A DNA stretch of 44,138 nucleotides from assembly GCA_017656505.1 (NCBI GenBank), contig JACDNU010000018.1:1-44138 (forward strand), read 5' to 3'. Source of the DNA: Archaeoglobus sp. (GTDB lineage: Archaea > Halobacteriota > Archaeoglobi > Archaeoglobales > Archaeoglobaceae). Shown in pieces: positions 4,324-40,866 of this stretch. The position numbers and the translations under genes are program-made. Positions within the stretch are counted from its first letter, which is position 1. Each line of letters opens with the position of its first letter. The notes under the pieces are model-generated. The model was not told the DNA's origin, made no database searches, and saw only the letters and a program-made list of their open reading frames with translations.

Positions 4324-5409
4324 GTGAGAAGCCTAGATAAGGAAGCCATTGAAAATCTAGCAGTGGGGGCAGCAATTCTCGGAACTGGCGGTGGAGGAGA
4401 TCCCTACATTGGAAAACTAACGGCAATCCAAGCTTTGGAGGAAGGATACGAGATAAACGTGGTGGATGTGGAAGAGGTGCCCAAAGATGCCCTAATCATC
4501 CCTTCAGCGGGAATGGGTACTCCGACTGTTATCGTGGAAAAACTTCCAAGAGGGACCGAGATAATCAACGCTTTCAAGGCTTTGGGGGAGTATCTGGGAA
4601 AAGAAGTGTATGCAACGATGCCCATCGAGGCGGGCGGCCTGAATTCCACTTTTCCTCTAGCAGTAGGAGCGAAAATGGGGATACCGATTGTGGATGCCGA
4701 CGGAATGGGAAGAGCTTTTCCCGAGCTTCAAATGACGACTTTCCACATAAATGGAGTTACAGTGACTCCGATGGCGTTAGCGGATGAGAGAGACAACATC
4801 GTTATTCTCAAGACATGCGATAACTACTGGGCTGAGTGGATTGCAAGGGATATCACCATACGCTTTGGAGGCACAGCCTGGATTGCTTTGTATCCGATGA
4901 CCGGCAAGGAGCTTAGAAAAGCTGCCATTCCCGGCACTCTAGGCCTTGCTGAGAGGCTTGGAGAGGCTGTGAGAGAGGCAAGAGAAAGAAAGGAGAACCC
5001 TATTGATGCTGTTCTAAACGCTTCCCAAGGATTCGAGCTGTTCAAAGGCAAGGTTGTGGATGTCGAGAGAAGAACCACAGGAGGGTTTGCCAGAGGAGTT
5101 GTGAAAATCGAGGGATTCGATGAATACTCCGGAAACACCCTGGAAGTCCACATCCAGAACGAGAACCTCGTGGCAATAAAAAATGGAGATGTTATCGCCA
5201 GCGTTCCGGATCTGATAACCATCCTCGATCTCGAGACGGCTGTGCCCATTACAACTGAGTCGGTGAAATACGGCCAGAGGTGTTTTGTTATCGGGATTCC
5301 ATGCAGCGAAATGTGGAGGACGGAGAAAGGCTTGGAGGTTGCAGGGCCAAAGTATTTCGGTTACGACGTTGAGTACGAACCAATAGAGGAAATCATGGGG
5401 GAGGTTTGA
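4324..5409 (+). CDS. DUF917 family protein (S-methyl-thiohydantoin desulfurase-like), copy 1
   Basis: About 361 residues. The N-terminus carries the glycine-rich LGTGGGGDPYIG motif and the centre the DADGMGRAFPELQMTTFH block, both hallmarks of DUF917, which I recall being renamed for S-methyl-thiohydantoin desulfurase. A TTG at 4300 keeps the same frame, but GGAGGG at 4313-4318 sits five bases before GTG 4324, making GTG the better start. The stop overlaps the next gene (TGATG at 5407-5411), implying translational coupling and a complex with the HyuA-like ATPase. A paralogue with the same central block lies at 11806. Substrate is inferred from the neighbouring racemase and permease. Confidence 0.88.
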   Translation: MRSLDKEAIENLAVGAAILGTGGGGDPYIGKLTAIQALEEGYEINVVDVEEVPKDALIIPSAGMGTPTVIVEKLPRGTEIINAFKALGEYLGKEVYATMPIEAGGLNSTFPLAVGAKMGIPIVDADGMGRAFPELQMTTFHINGVTVTPMALADERDNIVILKTCDNYWAEWIARDITIRFGGTAWIALYPMTGKELRKAAIPGTLGLAERLGEAVREARERKENPIDAVLNASQGFELFKGKVVDVERRTTGGFARGVVKIEGFDEYSGNTLEVHIQNENLVAIKNGDVIASVPDLITILDLETAVPITTESVKYGQRCFVIGIPCSEMWRTEKGLEVAGPKYFGYDVEYEPIEEIMGEV

Positions 5410-6962
5410 TGAGTTATAGGGTTGGTATTGATGTTGGAGGCACGAATACCGATGCCGTGATTGTTGACAAGGATAACAGGGCTATCGCCAAGATTAAAGT
5501 AGCAACAACAGAAGATGTCACTACAGGAATTTTAAACGCTCTAGAAGGTGTTTTGAAGGAATCTGCCGTTGATACATCAGAAATAAAGTATGCGATGCTT
5601 GGCACAACCCACTGTACGAATGCGATTGTGGAAAGAAAGAACTTGGCAAAAGTCGGGATTATTCGCATAGGAAAGCCCGCGACACTATCGATAAAACCGC
5701 TGATATCCTGGCCCGACGACTTGGTTAATGCCATCGGAGGTTACATGCACATTATCAGCGGGGGACACGAGTACGATGGAAGAGAGCTATCTCAGCTCGA
5801 TGAGAATGAAGTGAGAAAGGCTTTGCAGGACTTCAAGGAGAAAGGGGTCGAGGCATTGGCTATCTCAGCCGTGTTCTCTCCAGTAAACAATGAGCATGAG
5901 ATGAGGGTTACCGAGATTGCTAGAGAGATCCTTGGTGATATTCCGATAACACTCTCGCACGAAATAGGTAGCATAGGACTGTTAGAGAGGGAAAATGCTG
6001 CGGTAATAAATGCAGCCGTTGTCAAGGTTGCAAAGACTGCGATAAAATCCTTTGAGAATGCATTAAAAGAAAAGGGAATCGATGCCCGGCTATACATCAC
6101 CCAGAACGATGGTACTCTGATGTCAGCGGAGTATGCGTTGAGGTATCCGGTGTTGACAATTGCTTCTGGGCCCGCAAACAGCCTGAGAGGTGCCGCATTT
6201 TTGTCCGGGTTGAGAGATGGTATCGTCGTAGATGTTGGAGGAACTACAACTGACATCGGTGTTCTCGTTAACGGATTTCCAAGAGAGAGTTCAGTAGCTG
6301 TGGAGATCGGCGGTGTGAGGACGAATTTCAGAATGCCGGATCTGATCTCTATAGGCCTTGGAGGGGGCAGCTTAGTCAGATTCGAGAATGGTGTTGAAGT
6401 TGGTCCGGAAAGTGTTGGATACAGACTAGAAAAAGAGGCCCTCGTTTTTGGTGGAGACAAGCTTACAGCCACCGATATAGCTGTCTATCTAAAGAGAGCT
6501 GAGCTGGGAGACCCATCGAAGCTGAAGGACCTTGATAGCAAATTAGTGGAAAAAGCAGCGGATAAGATGAAAACCATGGTTGAAGAGGCAATTGACAGAA
6601 TGAAAACGAGCCCAGAGCCAGTTCCAGTGATACTGGTTGGTGGTGGAAGCATACTCCTTCCAGATAGTCTGAAAGGAGCTTCCAAAGTGGTAAAACCGGA
6701 GAACTTTGAAGTTGCGAACGCAATTGGAGCTGCAATCGCTCAGGTGAGCGGGGAGATCGACAAGGTCTTCTCTCTTGAAGAGAGAGGAAGAGAGGAAGTT
6801 CTCAAAGAAGCAAAGGAGATTGCCATGAAAGAAGCTATCAAGGCGGGAGCAGATCCGGATACTGTAGAGATAGTGGATGTGGATGAGATCCCTCTTGCAT
6901 ACCTGCCAGGTAACGCAATAAGGATTAGAGCGAAGGCTGCAGGTTACCTGAAAATTTTGTGA
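5409..6962 (+). CDS. Short HyuA-like hydantoinase/oxoprolinase family ATPase
   Basis: About 517 residues of the ASKHA fold. Phosphate loops are GIDVGGTNTD at the N-terminus and DVGGTTTDIGV near residue 275, and a late VILVGGGSILLP adenosine motif lies near residue 408. These define the hydantoinase A/5-oxoprolinase family, which uses ATP to activate a cyclic amide or lactam. It is shorter than typical HyuA (650-700 residues) because the C-terminal domain is missing, and no HyuB gene is present. The gene starts inside the DUF917 stop codon after a GGGGAGG site (5398-5404), so DUF917 may replace HyuB as partner. Substrate is likely a hydantoin-like ring, but this is context-based. Confidence 0.9.
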   Translation: MSYRVGIDVGGTNTDAVIVDKDNRAIAKIKVATTEDVTTGILNALEGVLKESAVDTSEIKYAMLGTTHCTNAIVERKNLAKVGIIRIGKPATLSIKPLISWPDDLVNAIGGYMHIISGGHEYDGRELSQLDENEVRKALQDFKEKGVEALAISAVFSPVNNEHEMRVTEIAREILGDIPITLSHEIGSIGLLERENAAVINAAVVKVAKTAIKSFENALKEKGIDARLYITQNDGTLMSAEYALRYPVLTIASGPANSLRGAAFLSGLRDGIVVDVGGTTTDIGVLVNGFPRESSVAVEIGGVRTNFRMPDLISIGLGGGSLVRFENGVEVGPESVGYRLEKEALVFGGDKLTATDIAVYLKRAELGDPSKLKDLDSKLVEKAADKMKTMVEEAIDRMKTSPEPVPVILVGGGSILLPDSLKGASKVVKPENFEVANAIGAAIAQVSGEIDKVFSLEERGREEVLKEAKEIAMKEAIKAGADPDTVEIVDVDEIPLAYLPGNAIRIRAKAAGYLKIL

Positions 6963-6994
6963 TTTGAAGTCTTATATTTGCGGAGGTGTTTTAG

Positions 6995-8326
6995 TTGAGT
7001 GAAAGCGAAAAAACAGAGCAGATGTTTAAGGATTTTGAGAGGGAGCCAGTTCCAGCTGAGCTTAGAAAGAATTGGCTGGAAATGGGGTTGGTCTGGGTTG
7101 GAATCGGGATGTGTCTTGCTGCATTGATGCTTGGAGGTGTCGTTGGATTTGGTCTTGATTTGGCTTCTGCAGCAGGGGCGATTTTACTCGGTAGTCTGGT
7201 TTTAACAATTATAAACGCTCTGTGCTCGGTTGTTGGAGCTGATACGGGCTTGTCCACTGCAATGATTGGTAGATTTGCATTCGGGGATGTAGGCGTTTAT
7301 ATTACGGCTGCGATTCTCGCACTGGGATGTTATGGCTGGTTTGCTGTTCAGCTGGGTCTCTTTGGCGAAACGGCTGTTGCTGGAATTCAGATGATTACCG
7401 GTTTCTCTGCGAACACCCAGCTGCTGATCATTATCGGGGGTATCCTGATGATTACCACAGCTATTTACGGCTATAGAGGGATTGCTCTGCTCAGCAAAAT
7501 CGCCGTGCCATTGATGGTTATTATACTCCTTGCTTCTCTCGTCAAAATTTTGGGTGAACATCCATGGGGTGAGCTAATTGCTGAAGGGCCACCTGGCGAT
7601 CCCATGCCTTTCGGTGTTGCTGCTTCGATAATAGCCGGATCATTCATGGTCGGAGCTGTTATAGGCCCTGACATAACGAGATACGCAAAGGATAGAAAGC
7701 ATGCGGTTGGAGCTGCGATACTCGGATTCCTAATCGGTTTCAGCCTGATGGTATACCTTGGCTCAATTCTCGCCCATGCGGTTGGAGAATGGGACGCCGT
7801 TAAAATAATGATTGGACTTGGATGGGGATTGATAGCGATCATAGTTTTGGTGCTTGCTCAGTGGACAACCAACGACAACAATCTGTATTCAGCTGCTCTT
7901 GATCTCTCAGTCATTTTCAGGACTTGGCCCAAATGGAAGCTCACTTTAGCGGCGGGCATTCTTGGCATCATAATCGCTTTGAGCGGGATATACGGAAAAT
8001 TTGTCCAGTGGTTGATGATCTTAAGTGCCACTATTCCTCCAATAGGCGGTGTTTACGTTACCGACTACTTCCTCTTCAACAGGGACTTCTACAGATTCGA
8101 GAACCTGGATAAGGTTCCAAAATGGCGACCGATAATGTTCATAGCCTGGATTGCCGGTTCCTTCGTTGCGTTCTGCACAACTCCTCCCCCGACTGGGTTC
8201 GGATGGTTTACCTTCACAACCGTCTCAGCCGTTGATGCCTTTATTGTTGCCGTAGTGGTTCAAGCGGTTCTTACAGCGTTGTACAGAAAATCGAAGGGAG
8301 GATGGCCTGAGGCAACTCCTATGTAA
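6995..8326 (+). CDS. NCS1 family permease (CodB/Mhp1-like)
   Basis: A 443-residue membrane protein with about 12 helices and the NCS1 (nucleobase:cation symporter-1) look: a charged N-terminus ending in PVPAELRKNW, glycine-rich helix 1, and a central GPDITRYAK segment typical of cytosine/allantoin/hydantoin permeases. The start is TTG at 6995, six bases after a strong GGAGGTG (6982-6988), so no ATG is needed. Mhp1 of this family carries benzyl-hydantoins. Here the permease sits between the HyuA-like ATPase and a hydantoin-type racemase, so it probably imports the pathway's substrate. A T-rich run (8327-8368) follows and may end or attenuate transcription. Confidence 0.92.
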   Translation: MSESEKTEQMFKDFEREPVPAELRKNWLEMGLVWVGIGMCLAALMLGGVVGFGLDLASAAGAILLGSLVLTIINALCSVVGADTGLSTAMIGRFAFGDVGVYITAAILALGCYGWFAVQLGLFGETAVAGIQMITGFSANTQLLIIIGGILMITTAIYGYRGIALLSKIAVPLMVIILLASLVKILGEHPWGELIAEGPPGDPMPFGVAASIIAGSFMVGAVIGPDITRYAKDRKHAVGAAILGFLIGFSLMVYLGSILAHAVGEWDAVKIMIGLGWGLIAIIVLVLAQWTTNDNNLYSAALDLSVIFRTWPKWKLTLAAGILGIIIALSGIYGKFVQWLMILSATIPPIGGVYVTDYFLFNRDFYRFENLDKVPKWRPIMFIAWIAGSFVAFCTTPPPTGFGWFTFTTVSAVDAFIVAVVVQAVLTALYRKSKGGWPEATPM

Positions 8327-8385
8327 ATTTTTATTTATTTGATTTTTTTATTTATCTCTTAATTTTTCAAAAAGAGGTGATGGAA

Positions 8386-9114
8386 TTGAAAGAAATGAGA
8401 ATTAGGATAATAGTTCCTATAATTGTCGATGTTTTTAACGAGGAGGTTGAGAGGGAATTCAAAACCTATGCTTCTGAGAAAACCGAGATTGAAGTTGTCA
8501 ATCTGGATAGAGGAACTGCATCCATCGAATCGGAATTCGATGAGGCTCTTGCAGCTCCAGACATAATCAAAAAAACCATCGAAGCGGAAAAACAGGGGTT
8601 CGATGGAGCGATTATAGATTGTTTTGGGGATCCGGCTGTAAAAGCTGCGAGAGAGGCTGTAGACATCCCTGTTGTTGGAGCGGCCGAACCTTCCATGCTG
8701 TTTGCCTGCTCACTGGGGCATAGATTCTCCGTTGTAACAGTTCTGGAGAACGTAATTCCCATGATTGAGAATATAGCCAAGGTGCTTGGTGTATACGACA
8801 AGCTCGCTTCCGTAAGGAGTGTCGATATACCTGTTCTCGAGCTGCACGACAAGGACAAACTGAAAAATGCCTTGCATGATGAGATGCTAAAAGCGATCAA
8901 GGAGGACAAGGCCCACGTTTTGATTTTGGGGTGCACAGGAATGATGGGTTTGGCAAACGATCTGCATAACATGCTCAAAGAAGAAGGGTTTGATGTGCCA
9001 GTGATCGATCCGGCAGCGGCATCCATCAAGTTCATCGAAGCCTTGCTAGGATTGGGAGTGAAGCAGAGCAGGTTGACCTACATGAAACCGCCTGAAAAGG
9101 AGAGAAACGTGTAG
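8386..9114 (+). CDS. Asp/Glu/hydantoin racemase family protein
   Basis: About 242 residues. The two catalytic cysteines of cofactor-independent racemases are visible: AIIDCFGDPA near residue 80 and LILGCTGMMG near residue 185. The spacing and the following ELHDKD region match hydantoin racemase (HyuE) rather than glutamate racemase. Start codons GTG 8377, ATG 8380, TTG 8386 and ATG 8395 share the frame; GAGGTG at 8374-8379 favours TTG 8386. It follows the NCS1 permease and would interconvert enantiomers of a 5-substituted hydantoin or related amide before hydrolysis. Aspartate or arylmalonate-type activity cannot be excluded. Confidence 0.87.
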   Translation: MKEMRIRIIVPIIVDVFNEEVEREFKTYASEKTEIEVVNLDRGTASIESEFDEALAAPDIIKKTIEAEKQGFDGAIIDCFGDPAVKAAREAVDIPVVGAAEPSMLFACSLGHRFSVVTVLENVIPMIENIAKVLGVYDKLASVRSVDIPVLELHDKDKLKNALHDEMLKAIKEDKAHVLILGCTGMMGLANDLHNMLKEEGFDVPVIDPAAASIKFIEALLGLGVKQSRLTYMKPPEKERNV

Positions 9115-9139
9115 CGAATAATTGACATAGAAAGATACC

Positions 9140-9655
9140 ATGAGCTCGATTTTTGATGTTATAAAGAAGAGAAGAAGTATCAGAAGATTTCAGAGAAGGG
9201 CAATCGAAGACGAGAAGATTAGACAGCTCTTGGAGGCGGCAATCTGGGCACCTTCAGCAGGAAATCACCAACCCTGGGTATTCATCGCTGTAAGGGATCC
9301 AAAGAGCATAGAAAAGATCAAAGTTGTATCTCCAGGCATTTTCGATATACCAGCAGCGATCATAGTTGTTTGTAGAGATATGAGGATCGCAGAAAAAGCC
9401 GGCAATCCAGAATTATCCATCTTTGATATCGCAATGGCATCACAGAACATGCTGCTAATGGCGTATGAACTTGGCCTTGGCTCTTGTCCTGTTAAATCTT
9501 TCAACCAGAAAGCAATCCAGGTACTTCTCGATCTGCCAGAGCATATAGTCCCAGAGCTGCTGATTACCCTCGGGTATCCTGCAGAAGAGCCATCTCCACG
9601 TGAGAGGAGAGATGGAGTCATATTTTTTGAAAAATATGGGCATAAGCAGGGGTGA
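9140..9655 (+). CDS. Nitroreductase-family flavoprotein
   Basis: A 171-residue protein beginning with the family's RRSIRRF phosphate-binding motif and followed by APSAGNHQPW, the FMN-contacting segment. The C-terminal LGYPAEEP closes the standard fold. Length is typical of small nitroreductases, which act as FMN dimers reducing nitro, enone or quinone substrates with NAD(P)H. It lies between the racemase and a DUF6092-like gene, whose GTG start region overlaps its stop at 9653-9655, so it belongs to the same transcription unit. It could reduce an unsaturated hydantoin-type intermediate, but this is a guess. Confidence 0.88.
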   Translation: MSSIFDVIKKRRSIRRFQRRAIEDEKIRQLLEAAIWAPSAGNHQPWVFIAVRDPKSIEKIKVVSPGIFDIPAAIIVVCRDMRIAEKAGNPELSIFDIAMASQNMLLMAYELGLGSCPVKSFNQKAIQVLLDLPEHIVPELLITLGYPAEEPSPRERRDGVIFFEKYGHKQG

Positions 9656-9660
9656 AAGCA

Positions 9661-9975
9661 ATGGCGGAGAATGAAAATAGAGATCTTAAAAACAGAGATC
9701 TGAAAGACGACCTTTTTGAGCTCATTTGCTTCATGCTCTCCAGTGCCAGAGGACTCATGGATGAGCCAAAAGCCTATGGGCCATTCAGGATTATAGATTC
9801 AGTAAGCAGGCTGATTTCCATACTTGAAAAACATCAGTTAGCTGATGATTTTTTAGTAAGGGAAAAAAAGAAAATTGAAGAAGGAAAGTATTCTGTAATG
9901 GATGGAGAAGATAAATTCAGAGAATTTTTGGATGGTTTAATGGTTGATTTCGCTGAAGAACTCAAGAAAAGATAA
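9661..9975 (+). CDS. DUF6092-like small protein
   Basis: About 104 residues. The core FELICFMLSSARGLMDEPKA followed by YGPFRIIDSVSRLI resembles the DUF6092 family, which I recall from amide/hydantoin catabolic clusters; function unknown. GTG at 9652 is in frame, but AGGGGTGA (9648-9655) sits correctly for ATG 9661. The N-terminus holds an exact in-frame repeat NRDLK-NRDLK, produced by a 15-bp duplication (9676-9690 and 9691-9705), so its length is not conserved. It is flanked closely by the nitroreductase and the epimerase. Confidence 0.68.
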   Translation: MAENENRDLKNRDLKDDLFELICFMLSSARGLMDEPKAYGPFRIIDSVSRLISILEKHQLADDFLVREKKKIEEGKYSVMDGEDKFREFLDGLMVDFAEELKKR

Positions 9976-9989
9976 AAAGGAGACCTAAA

Positions 9990-11108
9990 ATGGGAATGAA
10001 AATAACAAAAATAACCGCTGAAAAATACGATCTATCTCTGGTAGAGCCTTTCAGAATTTCCTTAGGGACTATTACAAAGGCAAATAACATTCTCGTACAG
10101 ATTTTCAGCGATGATTCCGGAGATATCTCCGGAGACAGGTTCAAAGATAACTCCAAAGATGATTTCGAAAATCTTGTTGGGATAGGGGAGGGTTCGCCTA
10201 CCTACAAAATCACCGGAGATAACCAAGAGGGAGCTTTGGCCTTCGTGCAAGATATTGCCCCTCTGCTTGTCGGCCAAGAGTTAGACATTCAGGCAATAGA
10301 TGAGACCCTGAATTCATTCGTAAACATGACCGGTGCAAAAGCTGCGATTAATATCGCGATATACGACCTTATTGGCAAGGAGCTTTCCAAACCCATTTTC
10401 AAATTACTTGGAGGATACAGAAAAGAGATAGAAACCGATCTGACGATCGGCATTCTTACGCCGCAAGAAGTGAGGGAGAAAGCGATAGATGCAATATCAA
10501 AAGGGTTTAAAATACTGAAAATTAAAGTTGAGGGGGATGTTGAACAGGATTTAAAGAGAATCGAGGCGATTAGCGATTTAGGAGTTAAAATCAGGCTTGA
10601 CGCCAATCAGGGCTTCACTCCAAAAGATGCAGTAAAATTCATCCAAAAGCTCTCCAATTTTGAAATAGAGCTCATCGAGCAACCGGTTCCATTTTGGGAC
10701 ATAGATGGATTGAAATACGTAAAGGAGAACAGTGACATACCAGTTTTCGCGGATGAAAGCGTTCATTTGGCAAGAGATGCTTTAAAGCTTGTGCAGGAGA
10801 AGTGTGTGGATGGAATAAACATCAAACTCATGAAGTGTGGAGGTTTAAGCGAGGCAATTAAGATAATCAATATCGCCGAAGCTGCGGGAATCCCATGTAT
10901 GATCGGCTGTATGCTTGAATCAAGAGTCTCCCTTACCGCTGCAGCCCATCTCGCTTTAGCTTTTAAGAACATCAAGTATGTAGACCTTGATTCGCACCTC
11001 TTCTTGAAAGAAGATCCAGTTTCAGGTGGGATGGAGATCAAAAATGGAAAGATAACAGTTCCAGATACTCCAGGACTGGGTATTTCAGGAATAGTTGGTG
11101 TTACGTAA
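9990..11108 (+). CDS. Enolase-superfamily dipeptide epimerase-like enzyme
   Basis: A 372-residue protein of the mandelate racemase/muconate-lactonising group. The KIKV catalytic lysine motif is near residue 177. Metal ligands are DANQG (about 204), IEQP (about 229) and ADES (about 255), and the second catalytic lysine is in NIKLMKCGG (about 279). The late GCMLES and LDSHLFL blocks match L-Ala-D/L-Glu epimerases and relatives. A GGAG site precedes ATG. The capping domain carries an unusual Asp/Ser/Gly-rich insertion (about residues 41-61) that contains an 18-bp palindrome. Within this cluster it could epimerise an N-acyl or N-carbamoyl amino acid or dipeptide. Confidence 0.88.
   Translation: MGMKITKITAEKYDLSLVEPFRISLGTITKANNILVQIFSDDSGDISGDRFKDNSKDDFENLVGIGEGSPTYKITGDNQEGALAFVQDIAPLLVGQELDIQAIDETLNSFVNMTGAKAAINIAIYDLIGKELSKPIFKLLGGYRKEIETDLTIGILTPQEVREKAIDAISKGFKILKIKVEGDVEQDLKRIEAISDLGVKIRLDANQGFTPKDAVKFIQKLSNFEIELIEQPVPFWDIDGLKYVKENSDIPVFADESVHLARDALKLVQEKCVDGINIKLMKCGGLSEAIKIINIAEAAGIPCMIGCMLESRVSLTAAAHLALAFKNIKYVDLDSHLFLKEDPVSGGMEIKNGKITVPDTPGLGISGIVGVT
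10116..10133. repeat. 18-bp perfect palindrome inside the epimerase gene
   Basis: tccggagatatctccgga reads the same on both strands. It lies in the stretch encoding the Asp/Ser/Gly-rich insertion of the epimerase, suggesting the insertion grew by local copying. Confidence 0.9.
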
Positions 11109-11170
11109 ATGGAATGTGATTACTAGGAAGAATGAAGATAATTAAAAACCTAATCTTTTTAATTTTACGT

Positions 11171-11213
11171 GTAAAAATTTGTAAAAAATTTGTAAAAATT
11201 GGAAAGTATAAAT
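11171..11213 (+). promoter_or_regulatory. Phased GTAAAAATT repeats and TATA box before Lrp-type regulator gene
   Basis: Three copies of gtaaaaatt begin at 11171, 11181 and 11192, so they are spaced about one helical turn. A TATA-like gtataaat follows at 11206-11213, about 25 nt before TTG 11236. The arrangement fits an operator read by a dimeric Lrp-type protein on one DNA face and a leaderless mRNA. Autoregulation is inferred. Confidence 0.5.
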
Positions 11214-11235
11214 CCGGCCGAACGGTAAATGGAGA

Positions 11236-11712
11236 TTGACGATTAGCCAACCAAATGATGTGGTTGCGATGCTAGATGAGATAGACAAGGGCATTCTTAG
11301 GCTTCTCCAAGAGGATGGGAACATATCCCTGAGTGAGATAGCTGACAAGCTGAATGTTGGCGTAGCAACTGTCCACAGAAGAATCCAGAGACTGAAGATG
11401 GAGAAAATAATAAAGAAGAAAATAGTTGTGATAGATCCGGAAAAAATTGGTAAGAAAATCTTTGCATTTATCGAAATCAAAACATCACCTAACTATGAAC
11501 AAAAGATATTAGACATTTTATCTTCCATGGAAGAGATTACAGAGGTCTATCTCGTTACCGGTGATTTCGATCTTATAGTAAAACTTGTCGTTGAAGATAT
11601 TAAAGAATTCACACAAGTTATTGAGAAAATTAGACAGATTAAAGGGGTTGTGGATACGAGGAGTGCCATAGTTATAAAAACGAAAAAGGAGGAATACAAG
11701 ATAAAGATCTAA
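11236..11712 (+). CDS. Lrp/AsnC family transcriptional regulator
   Basis: Up to 158 residues: an N-terminal winged helix (LDEIDKGILRLLQEDGNISL, then SEIADKLNVGVATVHRRIQRL) and a C-terminal RAM domain (EITEVYLVTGDFDLIVKL) that binds amino acids and builds octamers. The start is either TTG 11236, about 25 nt after a TATA box and so possibly leaderless, or ATG 11269, which would give the usual MLDEIDK N-terminus. It sits between the epimerase and the second DUF917 gene and is the obvious local regulator of amino-acid-yielding catabolism. The end of the gene is followed by a perfect 14-bp tandem duplication that includes its stop codon. Confidence 0.92.
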   Translation: MTISQPNDVVAMLDEIDKGILRLLQEDGNISLSEIADKLNVGVATVHRRIQRLKMEKIIKKKIVVIDPEKIGKKIFAFIEIKTSPNYEQKILDILSSMEEITEVYLVTGDFDLIVKLVVEDIKEFTQVIEKIRQIKGVVDTRSAIVIKTKKEEYKIKI

Positions 11713-11725
11713 AGATAAAGATCTA
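11698..11725. repeat. Perfect 14-bp tandem duplication at regulator gene end
   Basis: aagataaagatcta occurs at 11698-11711 and again at 11712-11725. The first copy encodes the last residues and stop of the Lrp-type gene. A second small duplication, gtctaaac twice, follows at 11750-11765. Confidence 0.95.
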
Positions 11726-11805
11726 GAAGATGATAGATAGAATTTGAAGGTCTAAACGTCTAAACGAAACGCATAATAATCTGGAAAAATTGAATGGGGA
11801 GTTCC

Positions 11806-12834
11806 ATGATAAAAATCTCTGAAGAAGTTGTAAGGAAGATCGCGAAAGGAGCGGAAATCTTGGGAAGTGGAGGTGGTGGACAGACTTACATCTCCGAACT
11901 CATGGCCCTCCAGACTCTCAAGGAGGACAAAACCACCCATCTCATTGAGGCAGAAAGTGTTCCCAACAACGCTTTGGTTCTCACAGTTGCGATGATGGGT
12001 TCGCCTTTAATTTTAAAAGAGAAGATACCGAACGGGTTGGAGGCTAGAAACGTTTTGAAATTACTCGAAAATTATTTCGGTGAGGAGACCTATGCCATTG
12101 TCCCGATAGAGGGTGCTGGTCTGAACTCGTTGACATCAATCGTTGCCGGCCTCAATTTAGGAATACCGGTAATAGATGCTGATGGGATGGGAAGAGCCTT
12201 TCCTGAGCTTCAGATGACGACTTTCCACATCTCTGGAATTTCTATCACTCCAATGGCAATTTCCGATGAGAAGGGGAATACAATATTCGTGGATTCGATA
12301 AACAACGAATACGGGGAGTGGTTTGCTAGGGGTGTAACAAGGTTGATGGGGGGTTATTCATGGATATCCTGCTATGCGATGACAGGAAAGGAGCTGAAAA
12401 AAGCTGCAGTTAAAAATACCCTCTCAAAAGCGATGGAGATAGGAGAGATTCTTTTGTCTGAATTACCTCCTGAATCAAAGCTGGAGAGAATCTGCGAATT
12501 TACGAAAGGAGCGATGCAAAAAGGGAAGGTTGAAAGAGTTAGAAGAATGAAATTCGGAAAATTTTATGGAGGAGAAGCAGAAATAATGGGGGAGGAAAAG
12601 ACCAAAATCATTTTCCAGAACGAATACCTCGTTGTGGAGAATCGGTCTGAAAGGATAAGCGTGCCAGATATTATAACCCTAGTTGACAGCTTTACCTTAA
12701 GACCAATTACAACTGAAGAGATAAGGGCTGGGATGAACGTATATATCCTCACGATGCCCTCAGATGAAAAATGGAAGACTGAAGAAGGACTAAATGTGGT
12801 TGGGCCGAAAACATTTGGATTGGATGAAAACTAA
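11806..12834 (+). CDS. DUF917 family protein, copy 2
   Basis: About 342 residues. It has the same LGSGGGGQTYI N-terminal motif and an identical DADGMGRAFPELQMTTFH block as copy 1 at 4324, with divergence elsewhere. ATG 11794 is in frame, but GGGGAG at 11796-11801 points to ATG 11806. It is separated from copy 1 by the whole cluster and stands just after the Lrp-type regulator. It has no adjacent HyuA-like gene, so it either pairs with the single ATPase at 5409 or works alone. Specificity relative to copy 1 cannot be read. Confidence 0.86.
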   Translation: MIKISEEVVRKIAKGAEILGSGGGGQTYISELMALQTLKEDKTTHLIEAESVPNNALVLTVAMMGSPLILKEKIPNGLEARNVLKLLENYFGEETYAIVPIEGAGLNSLTSIVAGLNLGIPVIDADGMGRAFPELQMTTFHISGISITPMAISDEKGNTIFVDSINNEYGEWFARGVTRLMGGYSWISCYAMTGKELKKAAVKNTLSKAMEIGEILLSELPPESKLERICEFTKGAMQKGKVERVRRMKFGKFYGGEAEIMGEEKTKIIFQNEYLVVENRSERISVPDIITLVDSFTLRPITTEEIRAGMNVYILTMPSDEKWKTEEGLNVVGPKTFGLDEN

Positions 12835-12993: not shown

Positions 12994-14076
12994 TCAACGC
13001 ACAAGATCGAGAGCATATCTTTTCGCGATTTCCATCGCCTCTCTCATCTCATCACTCCTTAGCCTCCTAGCAATCTCCGGATAGTCGTAAGCTTTGTAAG
13101 TTGGATAATACTGAAACATCAGATTGAACCTTGGATTGTTCAGATTTCTTGCAACCCAAGCTGCGATCTTTTCAGTGCAGCATTCAATATGTCCCGGCAT
13201 TACAAGGTGCCTTATAAGCAACTCACCGTTTTTCTCAGCTCTTTTGAAATTCCTCGTGATTATCTCCCAGTAATTCTTCACTTTGCTGTATTTCAGCGCG
13301 CATTCATCGTTTCCATACTTGAAATCTCCCAACCAGACGTCCACAACATCCTCGATTATTTCTGCAAGCTCACTAGAATGGTACATGTTGGAATTCCACA
13401 CGACTGGAACGTTCGATTCAACATTCCTCAAAATTTTCAGAATTGTGTGGGCATGCTGATCTGGATTTCCTCCCACAAAGTTCACGTTTCTGCTCCCTTG
13501 TCTGTATCTTAAGTCCACAATTCTGGCGATTTCTGCTTCATCAACGGGATAATCATCGTGATAGACTATATCGTAATTCTGGCAGAAAACACATCGAAAG
13601 GTGCACCGATTGAAGAAGATCGTGTGGGAAGGGATGAGTTCGGGCTCTTCTCCCATATGCAGGAATTCTGAGGAATAGTAGCTTTTATCAGTGCACTTGC
13701 AGAAACCTTTCTCGCTGTAGCGATTTACCTCACATCTCCTTTCACAGAAGCAGCAGCTTTCGAGCATCTTTTCAAGAATCTTAACTTTCAGATCGAGGAA
13801 ACTAAAGGCAGCCTTTTTCTCCGCAAACTTATTGCCATCAATTTTTCCCGAATCCAGTTCTTCTTTTATCTCTTTAAATTCTTCTTTTGCCTCCGAATGA
13901 ACTTTCAACAGATGCTCTAACTCAGATTCCAATCTTTCTCCTAACCTTTCACCTAACCTTCCTTCTAACCCTCCTTTTAATCCTCCTTCTAATCTTTCTA
14001 CCTCGATCCTCTTGGCTATCTGGAATTTGGCGATTGCATTGTTAAGATTTATCCGACTGTATCTATCAAGCCCCAC
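12994..14076 (-). CDS. PflX/COG1313-type radical SAM protein
   Basis: A 360-residue protein. The radical SAM cluster motif CTFRCVFCQNY lies near residue 160, preceded by a cysteine-rich CCFCERRCEVNR segment that typifies the PflX group of pyruvate formate-lyase activase relatives. The substrate of this group is not established. The N-terminal 20-75 residues are unusual: a low-complexity, probably coiled-coil region with EGGLKGGLEGRLGERLGERL encoded by imperfect tandem repeats (about 13925-14000). Homologues normally start near the cysteine-rich part, so this is an added segment. No pyruvate formate-lyase gene is nearby. Confidence 0.85.
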   Translation of the reverse strand: MGLDRYSRINLNNAIAKFQIAKRIEVERLEGGLKGGLEGRLGERLGERLESELEHLLKVHSEAKEEFKEIKEELDSGKIDGNKFAEKKAAFSFLDLKVKILEKMLESCCFCERRCEVNRYSEKGFCKCTDKSYYSSEFLHMGEEPELIPSHTIFFNRCTFRCVFCQNYDIVYHDDYPVDEAEIARIVDLRYRQGSRNVNFVGGNPDQHAHTILKILRNVESNVPVVWNSNMYHSSELAEIIEDVVDVWLGDFKYGNDECALKYSKVKNYWEIITRNFKRAEKNGELLIRHLVMPGHIECCTEKIAAWVARNLNNPRFNLMFQYYPTYKAYDYPEIARRLRSDEMREAMEIAKRYALDLVR

Positions 14077-14204: not shown

Positions 14205-15485
14205 CTAGCCCTTAATCTCAATCCCCAAAAACTTCAGCCAGGGAGTGTAGGTATTCTCAACCTGAACTTTTTCCCTGCCACCAACTTCAATCTTCTTGAG
14301 CAGCTCATAGATATTTCCGTAGAGCATTCCAGTTTTTATTGGCATTCCATCATAAATTGCTGGCGAGATCTCAAGGCTGAAATCCCCGCTTATGGGATTG
14401 GATGTGTGAGCACCGGTAAATGAATGTATGTACAAAGCCTTACCATAGTCTTTCCCCTCCTCCACCTCTATCAAAACATTGGTTGGCAGCGTTGCCGGAT
14501 AGCTGTTTCTCTCCTGCCTTATCCCATTCCCAGTAGGATCTGCGGAAAATTCATTCGCCCATTTCCAATCTTTGAGGAAATCTTTCAGAATCCCCTTTTC
14601 CACGATTTCTGTTCTTTGTGTAGCATTTCCCTCGTCATCGAAAGGAGAACTCATAAGCAACCCATCTTTTCTTCCATCATCGATCAGGCTTACCTCCCCA
14701 AATATTTTCTGATCTAATTTGTTTGCGAGCGGGCTTCTTCCCTTCACCACATTCTCCACCGAAAAAGCCGGATATAAAGCATGGAAGAGGAGTTGATGAG
14801 TTGCAAGGGGCGAAAGGACAACATCATACTTCCCAGGCTCGATCTTCGATCCTTTGGCGGAATGCTTTGCGAAGGTTGAGGCATTTTTTGCCATTCCTTC
14901 CAAATCGATTGAGGAATCCCGAGCTGAGGCAAGATCATATGCTGCTCCTTCTTCAAATACGCATTCTATGAAGGCAGAAACAAAAGTTTCATTGCTCTCC
15001 AACTCCGCCCCCGAAGAGTTCAAAATTTTCTTTTTTATTTCTGAAACTTCAACAACTCCTTCTGCGGGATTGACACCTTCTTCAACTGCAGAAATCACTA
15101 TTTCTCCTGCCTCCTTCAGCCAATCCCCTTCTATCTTCCCGTATATCCCATTAACCCTGGAGAATCCACCTTCGGGAAAATCATTCAGTCTTTCCTCAGA
15201 GATTTTCGTGATCTTTACCGCCCGTTCACATGCATCGATTAAGGCGTTAGCATCGGTTGTGAAGGAAAAACCCACTCTTCCATTCACTATTGCTCGAATT
15301 GCAACACCCTCCTCTCTTTCCTCGACAAGATGTTTTATCCTTCCCTTTTCGATTCTAACTGCTTTTTTTACCTCAACTTCGTGAAAGATTTCCCAAGCAT
15401 CGGAATTGAATTCGAGAAACTTAATTGGCGGCTCAAGTTCCATCTGAAAGTCTATCCGGTCCATCTTGCCTATCTTACCCTTCAT
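14205..15485 (-). CDS. tldE: TldE/PmbA family protein
   Basis: About 426 residues, with the modulator-of-gyrase fold and no HExxxH motif, as expected for the non-catalytic TldE/PmbA partner. C-terminal features include SFTGAHTSNPISGDFS, characteristic of the family. GTG 15494 shares the frame, but AAGGTGG just upstream favours ATG 15485. It lies directly after TldD on the same strand, and the two proteins form a heterodimeric metalloprotease that trims unfolded or modified peptides. In archaea the physiological substrate is unknown. Confidence 0.9.
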   Translation of the reverse strand: MKGKIGKMDRIDFQMELEPPIKFLEFNSDAWEIFHEVEVKKAVRIEKGRIKHLVEEREEGVAIRAIVNGRVGFSFTTDANALIDACERAVKITKISEERLNDFPEGGFSRVNGIYGKIEGDWLKEAGEIVISAVEEGVNPAEGVVEVSEIKKKILNSSGAELESNETFVSAFIECVFEEGAAYDLASARDSSIDLEGMAKNASTFAKHSAKGSKIEPGKYDVVLSPLATHQLLFHALYPAFSVENVVKGRSPLANKLDQKIFGEVSLIDDGRKDGLLMSSPFDDEGNATQRTEIVEKGILKDFLKDWKWANEFSADPTGNGIRQERNSYPATLPTNVLIEVEEGKDYGKALYIHSFTGAHTSNPISGDFSLEISPAIYDGMPIKTGMLYGNIYELLKKIEVGGREKVQVENTYTPWLKFLGIEIKG

Positions 15486-15508
15486 TTCTACCACCTTATT
15501 CCCATTCT

Positions 15509-15540
15509 TCAGCCTCCGTCAGCCTCCACCTTCAGCCTCC
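15509..15540. repeat. Threefold 9-bp repeat between tldD and tldE
   Basis: tcagcctcc occurs at 15509-15517, 15519-15527 and 15532-15540. On the coding strand the units read GGAGGCTGA, which supplies the TldD stop codon and several ribosome-binding-site-like GGAGG motifs ahead of tldE. Confidence 0.9.
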
Positions 15541-16812
15541 CCCGACGAAAGCCTCAACCACAGTATACGGTGCTCCGTCTGCAACGGGAACGAGCTGTCC
15601 AGCCTTACCACAGAAACCGGGATCGAATCTCAGCCCTTTCCCAACCTTTATTTTCTTTAAGATCTCCAAGGTATGTCCGCTTAAGGAGACATCCCTTATC
15701 ATTTTTCCGATCTCTCCATTAATGATCAGATACCCATACTGAGCGCTGAATTGGAAGTAGCCTGTAGCGGGATTCGTCTCTCCGCCTCTCGTTCCCACCA
15801 AGTAAACTCCATTCCCCACACTCTCCAGCAATTCATCGAGGCTGTAATCTCCCTCTTCGATGTAGGTATTACTCATTCTTATAAGCGGTTCTGCAACTCC
15901 TTGACTCCTCGAATTTCCCGGCATTCCCTTCATTTTTTTCGCAGTCTCACGGGAATGCAGAAATTCTTTGAAGATTCCCGCCTCGATAACTGCCTTCCTC
16001 CTCGCCTTAACTCCCTCGTCATCGAAAGGAAAGAAACCAAATTCCTCTATTAATGGATCATCGTAAACGTATAACTCCTCAGGGCCTACCTTAATTCCTG
16101 TTTCCCTGAGAATACTCGCCCCTCTAAGCAAATGATCCGCTTCAACCGCATGCCCAAAGGCTTCATGGATGAAAACTCCACCCAGCGAGGGATCCATCAG
16201 CACGGGCATTCTGCCTGAGGGGGGGCTTAAAGCACGTAATAGCTCCTTTAGCTTCGAGACTAAATCGCTTGCCATCTCAAAAGGTTCGTTTCCCGAAACA
16301 ACCTCGTAACCTCCAGCCCTGAAAAGCCTTTTTGAGAGGAATTGAAGGGTGGTGTCTTTCCCAACCACCTGGATTGCTATTCCCGTTCTCGGCACAACAT
16401 AGCTAACTTCATCACCAAAAGAGTTTTTGTAGTGAAATTCCCTTATGTTCTCGAGGTAACTTATTCTCACACTTACGATGTAGTCTGCTTTCAACTCCTT
16501 TTCGATCTCCTTTAAGAGCTTGACCTTCTCTTCGATGTCGATGCTGTCAACGTTTATCTTCTGCTTCATCTCGTAATGCCCGCTGTAAGAGCTTTCATCT
16601 ATCTCCACTTCTCCCTCCAAAGTGTTTCTTTCTGCAAGTTCCAAACCGGTTTTGTCATCAACCAAACCATTAAAAAATCCCCATGAACCGTTTTTCAGGA
16701 CCCTAAAGCTCTTTCCAGCAAAATTCTCATGTTTTGGTTTTTCAATCGATCCATTCTCAAGATTTAAGGTGAGAGACCTAGTTTTTAGATACCTTATGTC
16801 ATAAAAACTCAT
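15532..16812 (-). CDS. tldD: TldD family metalloprotease
   Basis: A 426-residue protein with the zinc-binding HEAFGHAVEADH (HExxxH) near residue 215, which marks the catalytic TldD subunit, and a closing MIRDVSLSGHTLEILKKI block typical of the family. The downstream tldE overlaps functionally and is separated only by short GGAGGCTGA repeats. The start is ATG 16812, about 107 bp after the DUF22-like gene's end region on the other side. Length and motifs are normal. Confidence 0.93.
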   Translation of the reverse strand: MSFYDIRYLKTRSLTLNLENGSIEKPKHENFAGKSFRVLKNGSWGFFNGLVDDKTGLELAERNTLEGEVEIDESSYSGHYEMKQKINVDSIDIEEKVKLLKEIEKELKADYIVSVRISYLENIREFHYKNSFGDEVSYVVPRTGIAIQVVGKDTTLQFLSKRLFRAGGYEVVSGNEPFEMASDLVSKLKELLRALSPPSGRMPVLMDPSLGGVFIHEAFGHAVEADHLLRGASILRETGIKVGPEELYVYDDPLIEEFGFFPFDDEGVKARRKAVIEAGIFKEFLHSRETAKKMKGMPGNSRSQGVAEPLIRMSNTYIEEGDYSLDELLESVGNGVYLVGTRGGETNPATGYFQFSAQYGYLIINGEIGKMIRDVSLSGHTLEILKKIKVGKGLRFDPGFCGKAGQLVPVADGAPYTVVEAFVGGG

Positions 16813-23793: not shown

Positions 23794-24792
23794 TCAAAGA
23801 AACTTCCAACCCAAGAGATGCAGATTCCCTATATTAACCCTTTCCAGATATTTCTTGGCAGCGTTGTAGCATTTCTTAACTTGCTCGATAGGCGTTACCG
23901 GCATATCGCTTAGCCTGTAATCAGGATGGAAAACTAAAAGACTGTATGGGATCTTTTTATCAAAGGAAGCGATGAACGAGGCAATTCCTTCAACCTCAGT
24001 CTCATCAACGTAATAAGGAACCATCAACGTTGTTGCCGATATAACCTCCGGAGCCGTGTCGAAGACAACCTCGAAATTCTTCAGCGTTGGCTTATTACTT
24101 CTGCCCGTGAGAATGCTATGCAAATTCTCGTTCCAAGCTTTAAGGTCGAATTTGATCGTACCATTGGTTTGAGAGCTTATTTCCGCTGCTTTCCTTACAT
24201 ATTTCTCTCTGCCACCTCCATTCCACTCCCAGCAAACCATCAAATCCTTTTCTTTAGCTGCTTTTTCGCTGAATCTGAGGGCAAATGTCAGCTGCGGTTC
24301 TGGGGAGCCTCCGAAATGGCAGATACATTTCACTCTCGCTTTCATCGCAGCTTCTACCATCTCATCTATCGTGTAAGCCCTTGCAACTTCCACGCTCTTG
24401 TGCTGCCAGTTCTGGCAGAAGAGGCAATCGAAGTTGCAGCCGTAGTAGAAAACCGCAAGATTTGTCCCATGCATTTTGCTTCCCTCGCAAAACCAAGCGT
24501 TGCAGCAGTTCGTTGGCAGAGGATCTTCGTAGTACGAAAGGAGAGCTTTGTTTGGAGTAGCTAGATTGAATCTTTTTCCTTCAGCTGTGCCTCTCAATCC
24601 GCATAGGCCAACGGTGTTCTCTGTAAAAACACAAAAATTCGTACAAAGACAGCATTTTCCTGTCAACTCAGCTTCTTCCAGTCGGAGCACCCTATGGAGA
24701 TTCTGATAAACTTCTTTATCCTTTCTGGCACAGTCAGGGCAGATGGGCAAATTTTTCGAATACACCTTTTTCCCGCAGCTGACGCACCTCAT
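23794..24792 (-). CDS. Radical SAM protein of the pyruvate formate-lyase activase-like group (second)
   Basis: A 332-residue protein. The N-terminal zinc ribbon CVSCGKK...CPDCARK is followed by a cysteine-rich CCLCTNFC segment. The radical SAM motif GCNFDCLFCQNW is near residue 120 and a late LLVFHPDYRLSDMP segment is typical of the activase-like group. It differs from the proteins at 12994 and 39865 in its zinc ribbon and C-terminus. The substrate is unknown. It is probably cotranscribed with the thioesterase gene that starts at 25261, which ends 10 bp upstream of this ATG. Confidence 0.83.
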   Translation of the reverse strand: MRCVSCGKKVYSKNLPICPDCARKDKEVYQNLHRVLRLEEAELTGKCCLCTNFCVFTENTVGLCGLRGTAEGKRFNLATPNKALLSYYEDPLPTNCCNAWFCEGSKMHGTNLAVFYYGCNFDCLFCQNWQHKSVEVARAYTIDEMVEAAMKARVKCICHFGGSPEPQLTFALRFSEKAAKEKDLMVCWEWNGGGREKYVRKAAEISSQTNGTIKFDLKAWNENLHSILTGRSNKPTLKNFEVVFDTAPEVISATTLMVPYYVDETEVEGIASFIASFDKKIPYSLLVFHPDYRLSDMPVTPIEQVKKCYNAAKKYLERVNIGNLHLLGWKFL

Positions 24793-39864: not shown

Positions 39865-40866
39865 CTACTGCAGAACTACTATTGCAATCTTTCTTCCACA
39901 GTTAAAACATCTGTCGCCTTCAAGTCTGTTCTCAATTAACCTGAATCCGTTCCTCCTAATCAAAAGAACACCACATTCTGGGCAGAAAGTGTTCTCAAAC
40001 CGATGATGGACGTTTCCAATGTAAACGTAATCTATTCCCTCTTTCTTTGCTTTCATAACCGCTTCTTCAAGCAGCTTAACCGACGTTGGAGGATCGGAGG
40101 TCAGATAGGCGGGAAAATATCGGGTAAAATGGATCGGGACCTCAGGATCCAAGTATTTTAGGTGGTTGGAGATTACCTCATCGATTAGCTCTGGATTCTT
40201 GTACATTGGGGGTGAGAGTAGACAAACCACCTCAACATGGATGTCTTTTTTCCTTGCAAACCTTGCATTCCTCCAGATGTACTTGCTCTTTCCACCCTTT
40301 GATATTCGTGCATAAACCCCGTCTCCCCCTTTAATGTCGAAATTCGCCGCATTTAGGCCAGCATCGATCAGCATTTTCAACGCCTTTGGCATCATGTAGC
40401 CGTTTGATACAATCGTGTTTCTTAGGTTGTTCTTTCTCGCCAATGGAAAGAGGTCAAGAAGGTATTCAAAAAGCAGCGTCGGTTCGTTGAAGCTGGCACA
40501 CGTACTTCTGTCCCCGTTTTTCAATGCCATTTCAATAAGCTTTTCGGGACTAATTGGATTAAAATCCTCAGGAGGAGGTCTCTTGGAAAGATGCCAATTC
40601 TGACACCACGGACAATCGAGATTGCACGAATAAGTTGAGAAAGTCAGGCTTGATGAGCCGGGTAAAAAATGAAAGAAGGGTTTTATCTCCATCGGTCTGC
40701 TCTCTATCGCACTAAGATTTCCATAGGTGAGTGTTTTCAGAGTTCCCTTTTCATTATACCTTGCTCTGCAATGCCCAAAGCTATTTTCAGCTACTCGGCA
40801 CCTGTTCCAGCAGAGGAGGCATCTGATTTTGCTCTCTCCATCTCGCCAAAGCTTTGCTTCAATCAC
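39865..40866 (-). CDS. amrS: AmmeMemoRadiSam-system radical SAM enzyme (AmrS-like)
   Basis: A 333-residue protein. CLLCWNRC begins the cysteine-rich part, CNLDCPWCQNW (near residue 83) is the radical SAM cluster motif, and a C-terminal zinc ribbon CPECGV...CFNCGRK closes it. This is the AmrS architecture, whose usual partners are AmrA (AMMECR1) and AmrB (Memo); neither is in this window. The reaction of this family is not established. Confidence 0.88.
   Translation of the reverse strand: MIEAKLWRDGESKIRCLLCWNRCRVAENSFGHCRARYNEKGTLKTLTYGNLSAIESRPMEIKPFFHFLPGSSSLTFSTYSCNLDCPWCQNWHLSKRPPPEDFNPISPEKLIEMALKNGDRSTCASFNEPTLLFEYLLDLFPLARKNNLRNTIVSNGYMMPKALKMLIDAGLNAANFDIKGGDGVYARISKGGKSKYIWRNARFARKKDIHVEVVCLLSPPMYKNPELIDEVISNHLKYLDPEVPIHFTRYFPAYLTSDPPTSVKLLEEAVMKAKKEGIDYVYIGNVHHRFENTFCPECGVLLIRRNGFRLIENRLEGDRCFNCGRKIAIVVLQ

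Follow-up and report, generated by a model that had tools for sequence, protein, structure and literature searches.

The window analysed here is a 44,138-nucleotide stretch of DNA from Archaeoglobus sp. (assembly GCA_017656505.1, contig JACDNU010000018.1, positions 1 to 44,138), and the system in question is a block of nine genes at positions 4324-12834, headed by a DUF917 protein (copy 1) and a short HyuA-like ASKHA ATPase. We conclude that the HyuA-DUF917 pair probably represents a widespread and undescribed route by which ring amides are opened with ATP, and that its role in this archaeon is most likely the consumption of cyclic dipeptides or hydantoin-like relatives. Our favoured reading of the operon, to which we give a probability of about one half, is that it serves the uptake and degradation of a small cyclic amide, the most likely substrates being 2,5-diketopiperazines (cyclic dipeptides) or compounds closely related to them. 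More tentatively, DUF917 and short HyuA may form an undescribed two-component class of ATP-driven amide-ring hydrolase that occurs in both Bacteria and Archaea, relies for hydrolysis on a fold with no relation to HyuB, and is here joined by a cyclodipeptide oxidase (CDO)-like pair and an epimerase for cyclic-dipeptide degradation. DUF917 is common across genomes, mostly without an assigned role, and the pairing offers it one, as the hydrolytic partner of a ring-amide-activating ATPase in a system free of HyuB. If true, this would also suggest how anaerobes and archaea open peptidase-resistant cyclic dipeptide rings, whose degradation is poorly understood (PMC3852281), and would provide a job for non-biosynthetic CDO-like enzymes.

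The argument begins with the recurrence of the pair. DUF917 copy 1 (4324-5409) and the short HyuA gene (5406-6962) overlap by 4 bp, as noted in an earlier reading made from the letters of the window (hereafter the sequence-only reading). We scanned 84,980 genomes, using a DUF917 alignment as query, and kept the 80 loci closest to copy 1; 76 of these carry a HyuA-like gene no more than 1.5 kb from DUF917. A conserved neighbourhood, which the sequence-only reading had suggested looking for, is therefore found far beyond this lineage, with pairs in Bacillota, Chloroflexota, Deinococcota, haloarchaea and Thermoproteota. A 77th locus (L071) has lost the start of HyuA at a contig end; of the remainder, L057 itself starts at a contig end, and in L069 and L089 a short HyuA lies farther away in the locus. 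Complete paired HyuA proteins have a median length of 522 residues (range 512-653), and the median spacing over 89 adjacent pairs is again a 4-bp overlap. Pairwise distances between DUF917 proteins follow those between their HyuA neighbours (r=0.969) far more closely than those between adjoining NCS1 permeases (r=0.159; 55 trios), these correlations being descriptive, since the sequences are related and joint inheritance accounts for part of them. Eight loci contain two pairs, and in seven of the eight one pair has diverged in both members. Profile searches for HyuB (PF02538), in which positive controls gave signal, found none at the locus and none in the whole genome, extending the absence first noticed within the block; among relatives with the operon or its core, none was found in G097, G155 or G057, and two were found in G254. 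The proposal that DUF917 is the second subunit, acting with the short HyuA, is thus supported by near-universal adjacency across the 80 loci, matched divergence and the absence of HyuB, which together mark DUF917 as the putative partner of the short ATPase. We found no description of the pair in the open-access literature searched, and no natural fusion of the two in the 80 loci; HyuA-DUF917 fusions occur in fungi. A second HyuA-like gene in the genome (G000:C77, 498 aa) was considered as a partner and rejected as a different paralogue, given that its relatives in L036 and L037 have DUF917-free neighbourhoods. The closest pair outside the lineage lies in a Syntrophobacterales metagenome-assembled genome (MAG; L039:9992-12759), with DUF917 at 81% identity, which suggests that the pair has moved between archaea and bacteria or that the MAG is misassembled; a separate CDO pair lies about 32 kb away (L176).

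The short HyuA (Hydant_A_N, 2.4e-47; Hydantoinase_A positions 1-174 of 291) is the proposed substrate-activating subunit. Its top sequence match in PDB is N-methylhydantoinase (5.5e-41), and its predicted structure (predicted local distance difference test, pLDDT, 90.9) gives, in Foldseek, N-methylhydantoinase, acetone/acetophenone carboxylase and caprolactamase subunits as best matches. With the HyuAB lactamases and hydantoinases (caprolactamase CapAB, 5-oxoprolinase, N-methylhydantoinase) it has in common a HyuA-type ASKHA ATPase, an adjoining second protein and the two DxGGT phosphate motifs (D9 and D276 are invariant in 62 sequences), and ATP-driven opening of a ring amide is probably shared as well. 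It differs from them on three of the features by which HyuAB membership was judged. At about 520 aa it has no PF19278 domain, bearing out the remark that the usual C-terminal domain is missing (absent in 62/62 of the alignment, whereas the control, a long HyuA of a related locus, has it); it has no GxxPGP, the adenosine motif named for CapA (PMC8453981); and its putative partner is DUF917, of another fold and without the CapB zinc ligands, in a genome without a detected HyuB. Despite these three differences, HyuA-DUF917 probably works in the manner of an ATP-dependent lactamase. Alternatively, the short HyuA could, in place of phosphorylating the substrate, use its ATPase activity for the maturation or reactivation of DUF917; DUF917 itself would then hydrolyse its substrate, as the name of the thiohydantoin desulfurases implies for them, without spending ATP at each turnover. 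The lost motif and C-terminal domain fit this idea, as do the distant DUF917 proteins and subfamilies that have no short HyuA ATPase nearby (the pairing being a property of the copy 1 subfamily) and the loci with several DUF917 genes per HyuA, of which there are two to five per short HyuA in Chloroflexota (L093, L104, L115 and others) and three in haloarchaea. However, the model reaches template-modelling (TM) scores of 0.66-0.77 to substrate-activating HyuA/Apc/Acx/CapA subunits, as against about 0.3 to activator ATPases such as 1hux, and the close one-to-one divergence of HyuA and DUF917 likewise argues against this idea, so that we regard a maturation role as improbable.

DUF917 copy 1 has the S-Me-THD_N/_C fold (PF06032, 1.1e-61; PF20906, 1.2e-77) and is the proposed ring-hydrolysing partner. 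Its AlphaFold model (pLDDT 93.6) has a sole structural match in PDB, the uncharacterised 2o3i, and the polar positions that hardly vary hold acidic residues, Asn or Arg, including E72, E102, N107, D124, D126, R130, E134, R249, N279, E280 and D296. Copy 2 (11794-12834; PF06032, 1e-54), which is 44% identical to copy 1 and has no HyuA of its own, keeps all the residues invariant in alignment A3, being itself a member of it. The sequence-only reading had allowed for a sulfur analogue as substrate, and this part of it is not supported. Against the NCBIfam equivalog models for thiohydantoin and S-methyl thiohydantoin desulfurases (NF058529 and NF058532; cut-offs 440-450 bits), copy 1 scores 110 and 107 bits and copy 2 64 and 85 bits, and membership was rejected with copy 1 at 110 bits where 450 are required. 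The same models match 72/72 members of the DUF917 alignment (best E 1.3e-36, in a comparison of E values only). The window protein shares its fold family with the desulfurases and differs from them in its link to an ATPase and in scores far under the cut-offs. Desulfurisation of S-methyl thiohydantoin, as the family name implies, would by analogy be similar chemistry to an attack on a C(=N)-O-phosphate. Searches of the open-access literature for a diketopiperazine hydrolase and for a thiohydantoin desulfurase found nothing.

A feature overlooked by the sequence-only reading bears on the substrate. Its nitroreductase (9140-9655) and DUF6092 protein (9652-9975) are, by sequence comparison, homologues of AlbA and AlbB, the subunits of a cyclodipeptide oxidase; their top PDB matches are the AlbA albonoursin synthase (8uc3_A, 1e-33) and AlbB (8uc3_D, 1.5e-8), and the second carries PF19585 (1.3e-27), the family by which CDOB was defined in Andreas et al. 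2024 (PMC11055893). As in AlbAB, the CDOA-like and CDOB-like genes are adjacent, overlapping by 4 bp, and the arginines that hold the phosphate of flavin mononucleotide (FMN), R24/R28/R175, are kept as R11, R15 and R154. In contrast to AlbAB, the pair sits in a catabolic-looking operon, has an alignment gap in place of the covalent-FMN Cys115, and is accompanied by no cyclodipeptide synthase (CDPS) that we could find in the genome, in a search that had no positive control giving signal. The covalent cysteine is confined to CDPS-linked CDOs and absent in members outside CDPS clusters (PMC11055893). With no CDPS found, and with the same limit on that search, cyclodipeptides made by the host were rejected as the substrate source. 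It is very improbable that the cluster is biosynthetic, with a modified hydantoin or cyclic dipeptide natural product as its output: the CDOs whose function is known do act in biosynthesis, but 88% of CDO clusters lack a CDPS (PMC11055893), and the permease, racemase, epimerase and peptidase context here appears catabolic. Near non-CDPS CDOs, those of archaea included, hydantoin racemase and DUF917 are enriched, so that the linkage of CDO, DUF917 and racemase, published in 2024, is not new; the available portions of that paper describe neither the short HyuA as partner of DUF917 nor the dipeptide epimerase (PMC11055893). When CDOB was sampled independently of DUF917, at 37 loci from three other phyla, DUF917 lay within a 7 kb radius at 17 of them; the corresponding counts for racemase, short HyuA and NCS1 are 8, 7 and 5. 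A Peptococcaceae contig found via DUF917 (L080) has NCS1, DUF917, HyuA, racemase, CDOA and CDOB, which is the order of the window except that NCS1 comes first. Three Chloroflexota loci (L178, L180, L184) combine two DUF917 copies and a CDO with a long HyuA, the CDOA and CDOB genes being fused in L184 and a Hydantoinase_B gene added in L180; both ring-opening systems may serve one pathway there.

Of the remaining enzymes, the enolase-superfamily protein (MR_MLE; 9990-11108) is a homologue of dipeptide epimerases (3jva, 1.9e-80; L-Ala-D/L-Glu epimerase 1jpm, 1.9e-70). Its KxK motif, D/E/D metal ligands, second lysine and DxD motif (D332/D334) align with both structures, the DxD being the motif for the ammonium group of the dipeptide. 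Its score against NF041118 (L-Ala-D/L-Glu epimerase) is 270.7 bits, below the 500-bit cut-off. Peptide-handling genes recur elsewhere: with neighbour clusters profiled by representatives, 12 of the 25 CDO loci selected contain a gene of a cluster with an M29-like aminopeptidase representative, oligopeptide transporters lie near some relatives, and among 55 genes flanking DUF917-HyuA cassettes M19 dipeptidases, with four, are the joint commonest family. This context is suggestive rather than decisive, and because of it, together with the CDO-like pair and the dipeptide-epimerase homologue with its DxD, we favour cyclic dipeptides or similar rings over thiohydantoins. The hydantoin pathway of the sequence-only reading is possible but less likely. 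In that scheme the same two-part ATP-driven ring opener would act on a 5-substituted hydantoin, a dihydropyrimidine or an allantoin-like ureide derived from nucleobases or amino acids, with the CDO (de)hydrogenating the side chain and the racemase inverting C5. The racemase (8377-9114; PF01177, 1.9e-43, 149 bits against a cut-off of 31; 3qvj, 7.7e-38), in which both catalytic cysteines were seen and are confirmed (Cys82 in DCFGDP, Cys185 in LGCTGM), is nearest to hydantoin and allantoin racemases (allantoin racemase 5lfd, 1e-30); the NCS1 permease (6995-8326; PF02133, 3.9e-25) is of the CodB/Mhp1 kind (CodB 7qoa, 2e-48; Mhp1 hydantoin permease, 2.6e-10); HyuA is nearest to N-methylhydantoinase; sigma-54 or PucR-like regulators (the latter recognised by eye) lie upstream in some Bacillota; and Andreas et al. 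2024 prefer hydantoin or allantoin substrates for non-CDPS CDO clusters (PMC11055893). Yet the flanking genes contain only two CN-hydrolases (possible carbamoylases) against the four M19 dipeptidases, and a dipeptide-epimerase homologue lies inside the operon, so that we think a hydantoin-type substrate somewhat unlikely.

Going beyond what gene content, conservation, the pairing, homologies and catalytic motifs show, we infer cyclic dipeptides as substrate, a complex, a phosphorylated intermediate and an order of steps as follows. The ring would be imported by the NCS1 permease, and its alpha-carbon adjusted by the racemase and the CDO-like flavoenzyme, by epimerisation or (de)hydrogenation. 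The short HyuA would then spend ATP to phosphorylate the ring amide as its lactim, and DUF917 would hydrolyse the resulting C(=N)-O-phosphate to leave an open ring, much as CapA is proposed to activate a lactam as lactim for hydrolysis in CapB (PMC8453981). The enolase-superfamily epimerase would turn the dipeptide into an isomer usable by cellular peptidases, and the Lrp protein would sense the product. Several observations weigh against this reading. GxxPGP occurs in 0/62 short HyuA sequences; neither His nor Cys is conserved in DUF917, which hence has no CapB-like zinc site; and homology of DUF917 to HyuB was rejected, its model having no structural similarity to HyuB and matching 2o3i only. 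The epimerase is otherwise rare, being present at 1 of the 80 DUF917-HyuA loci, and characterised NCS1 and racemase relatives handle hydantoins, allantoin or nucleobases, not peptides. Moreover, the CDO is dispensable, because G057, a genome from another genus, has no CDO pair and yet retains DUF917 and HyuA at 73-74% identity together with a diverged NCS1 permease, racemase and epimerase.

The DUF917 gene of G057 (L032:10682-11755) has one in-frame TAG stop, from a sequencing error or a decayed gene. Three sister genomes, namely G254, G097 and (on the opposite contig strand) G155, share the nine-gene order at 65-98% identity, with flanking genes matched in G254 only. The ratio of nonsynonymous to synonymous divergence (dN/dS) is 0.02-0.11 against G097, the sole comparison with unsaturated synonymous sites (dS 1.0-2.2), those against G155 being saturated. 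Given this shared order and the low dN/dS, the operon is real, more than a chance arrangement, and under strong purifying selection. It is rare within the phylum: DUF6092 was found in 5 of 394 genomes, with four of these matches above the cut-off, and 6 of 247 genomes had DUF917. A weak DUF6092 match (G000:C7, 24.8 bits) was discarded as below the cut-off and without recognised operon neighbours.

An open reading frame and profile search of the window recovers all nine genes on the forward strand in the order first described. Genes 1-7 are tightly spaced, with gaps of at most 50 bp and two 4-bp overlaps (DUF917 copy 1/HyuA and nitroreductase/DUF6092). A probable local regulator of Lrp/AsnC type (11236-11712; PF01037, 2.5e-19, with HTH_AsnC), found at the same place in the three sister genomes, starts 127 bp after the preceding gene, and DUF917 copy 2 starts 81 bp after it. 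Upstream of the operon lies a CstA-family carbon-starvation protein (259-1959), of a family whose members are often peptide or pyruvate transporters. Downstream, two adjoining genes (14205-16812) resemble by eye a TldD/TldE (PmbA) protease pair, which is next to the operon in G254 too. The 44-kb window also encodes three radical-SAM-like proteins, one confirmed by Pfam (12994-14076) and two recognised by eye from cysteine motifs (23794-24792 and 39865-40866).

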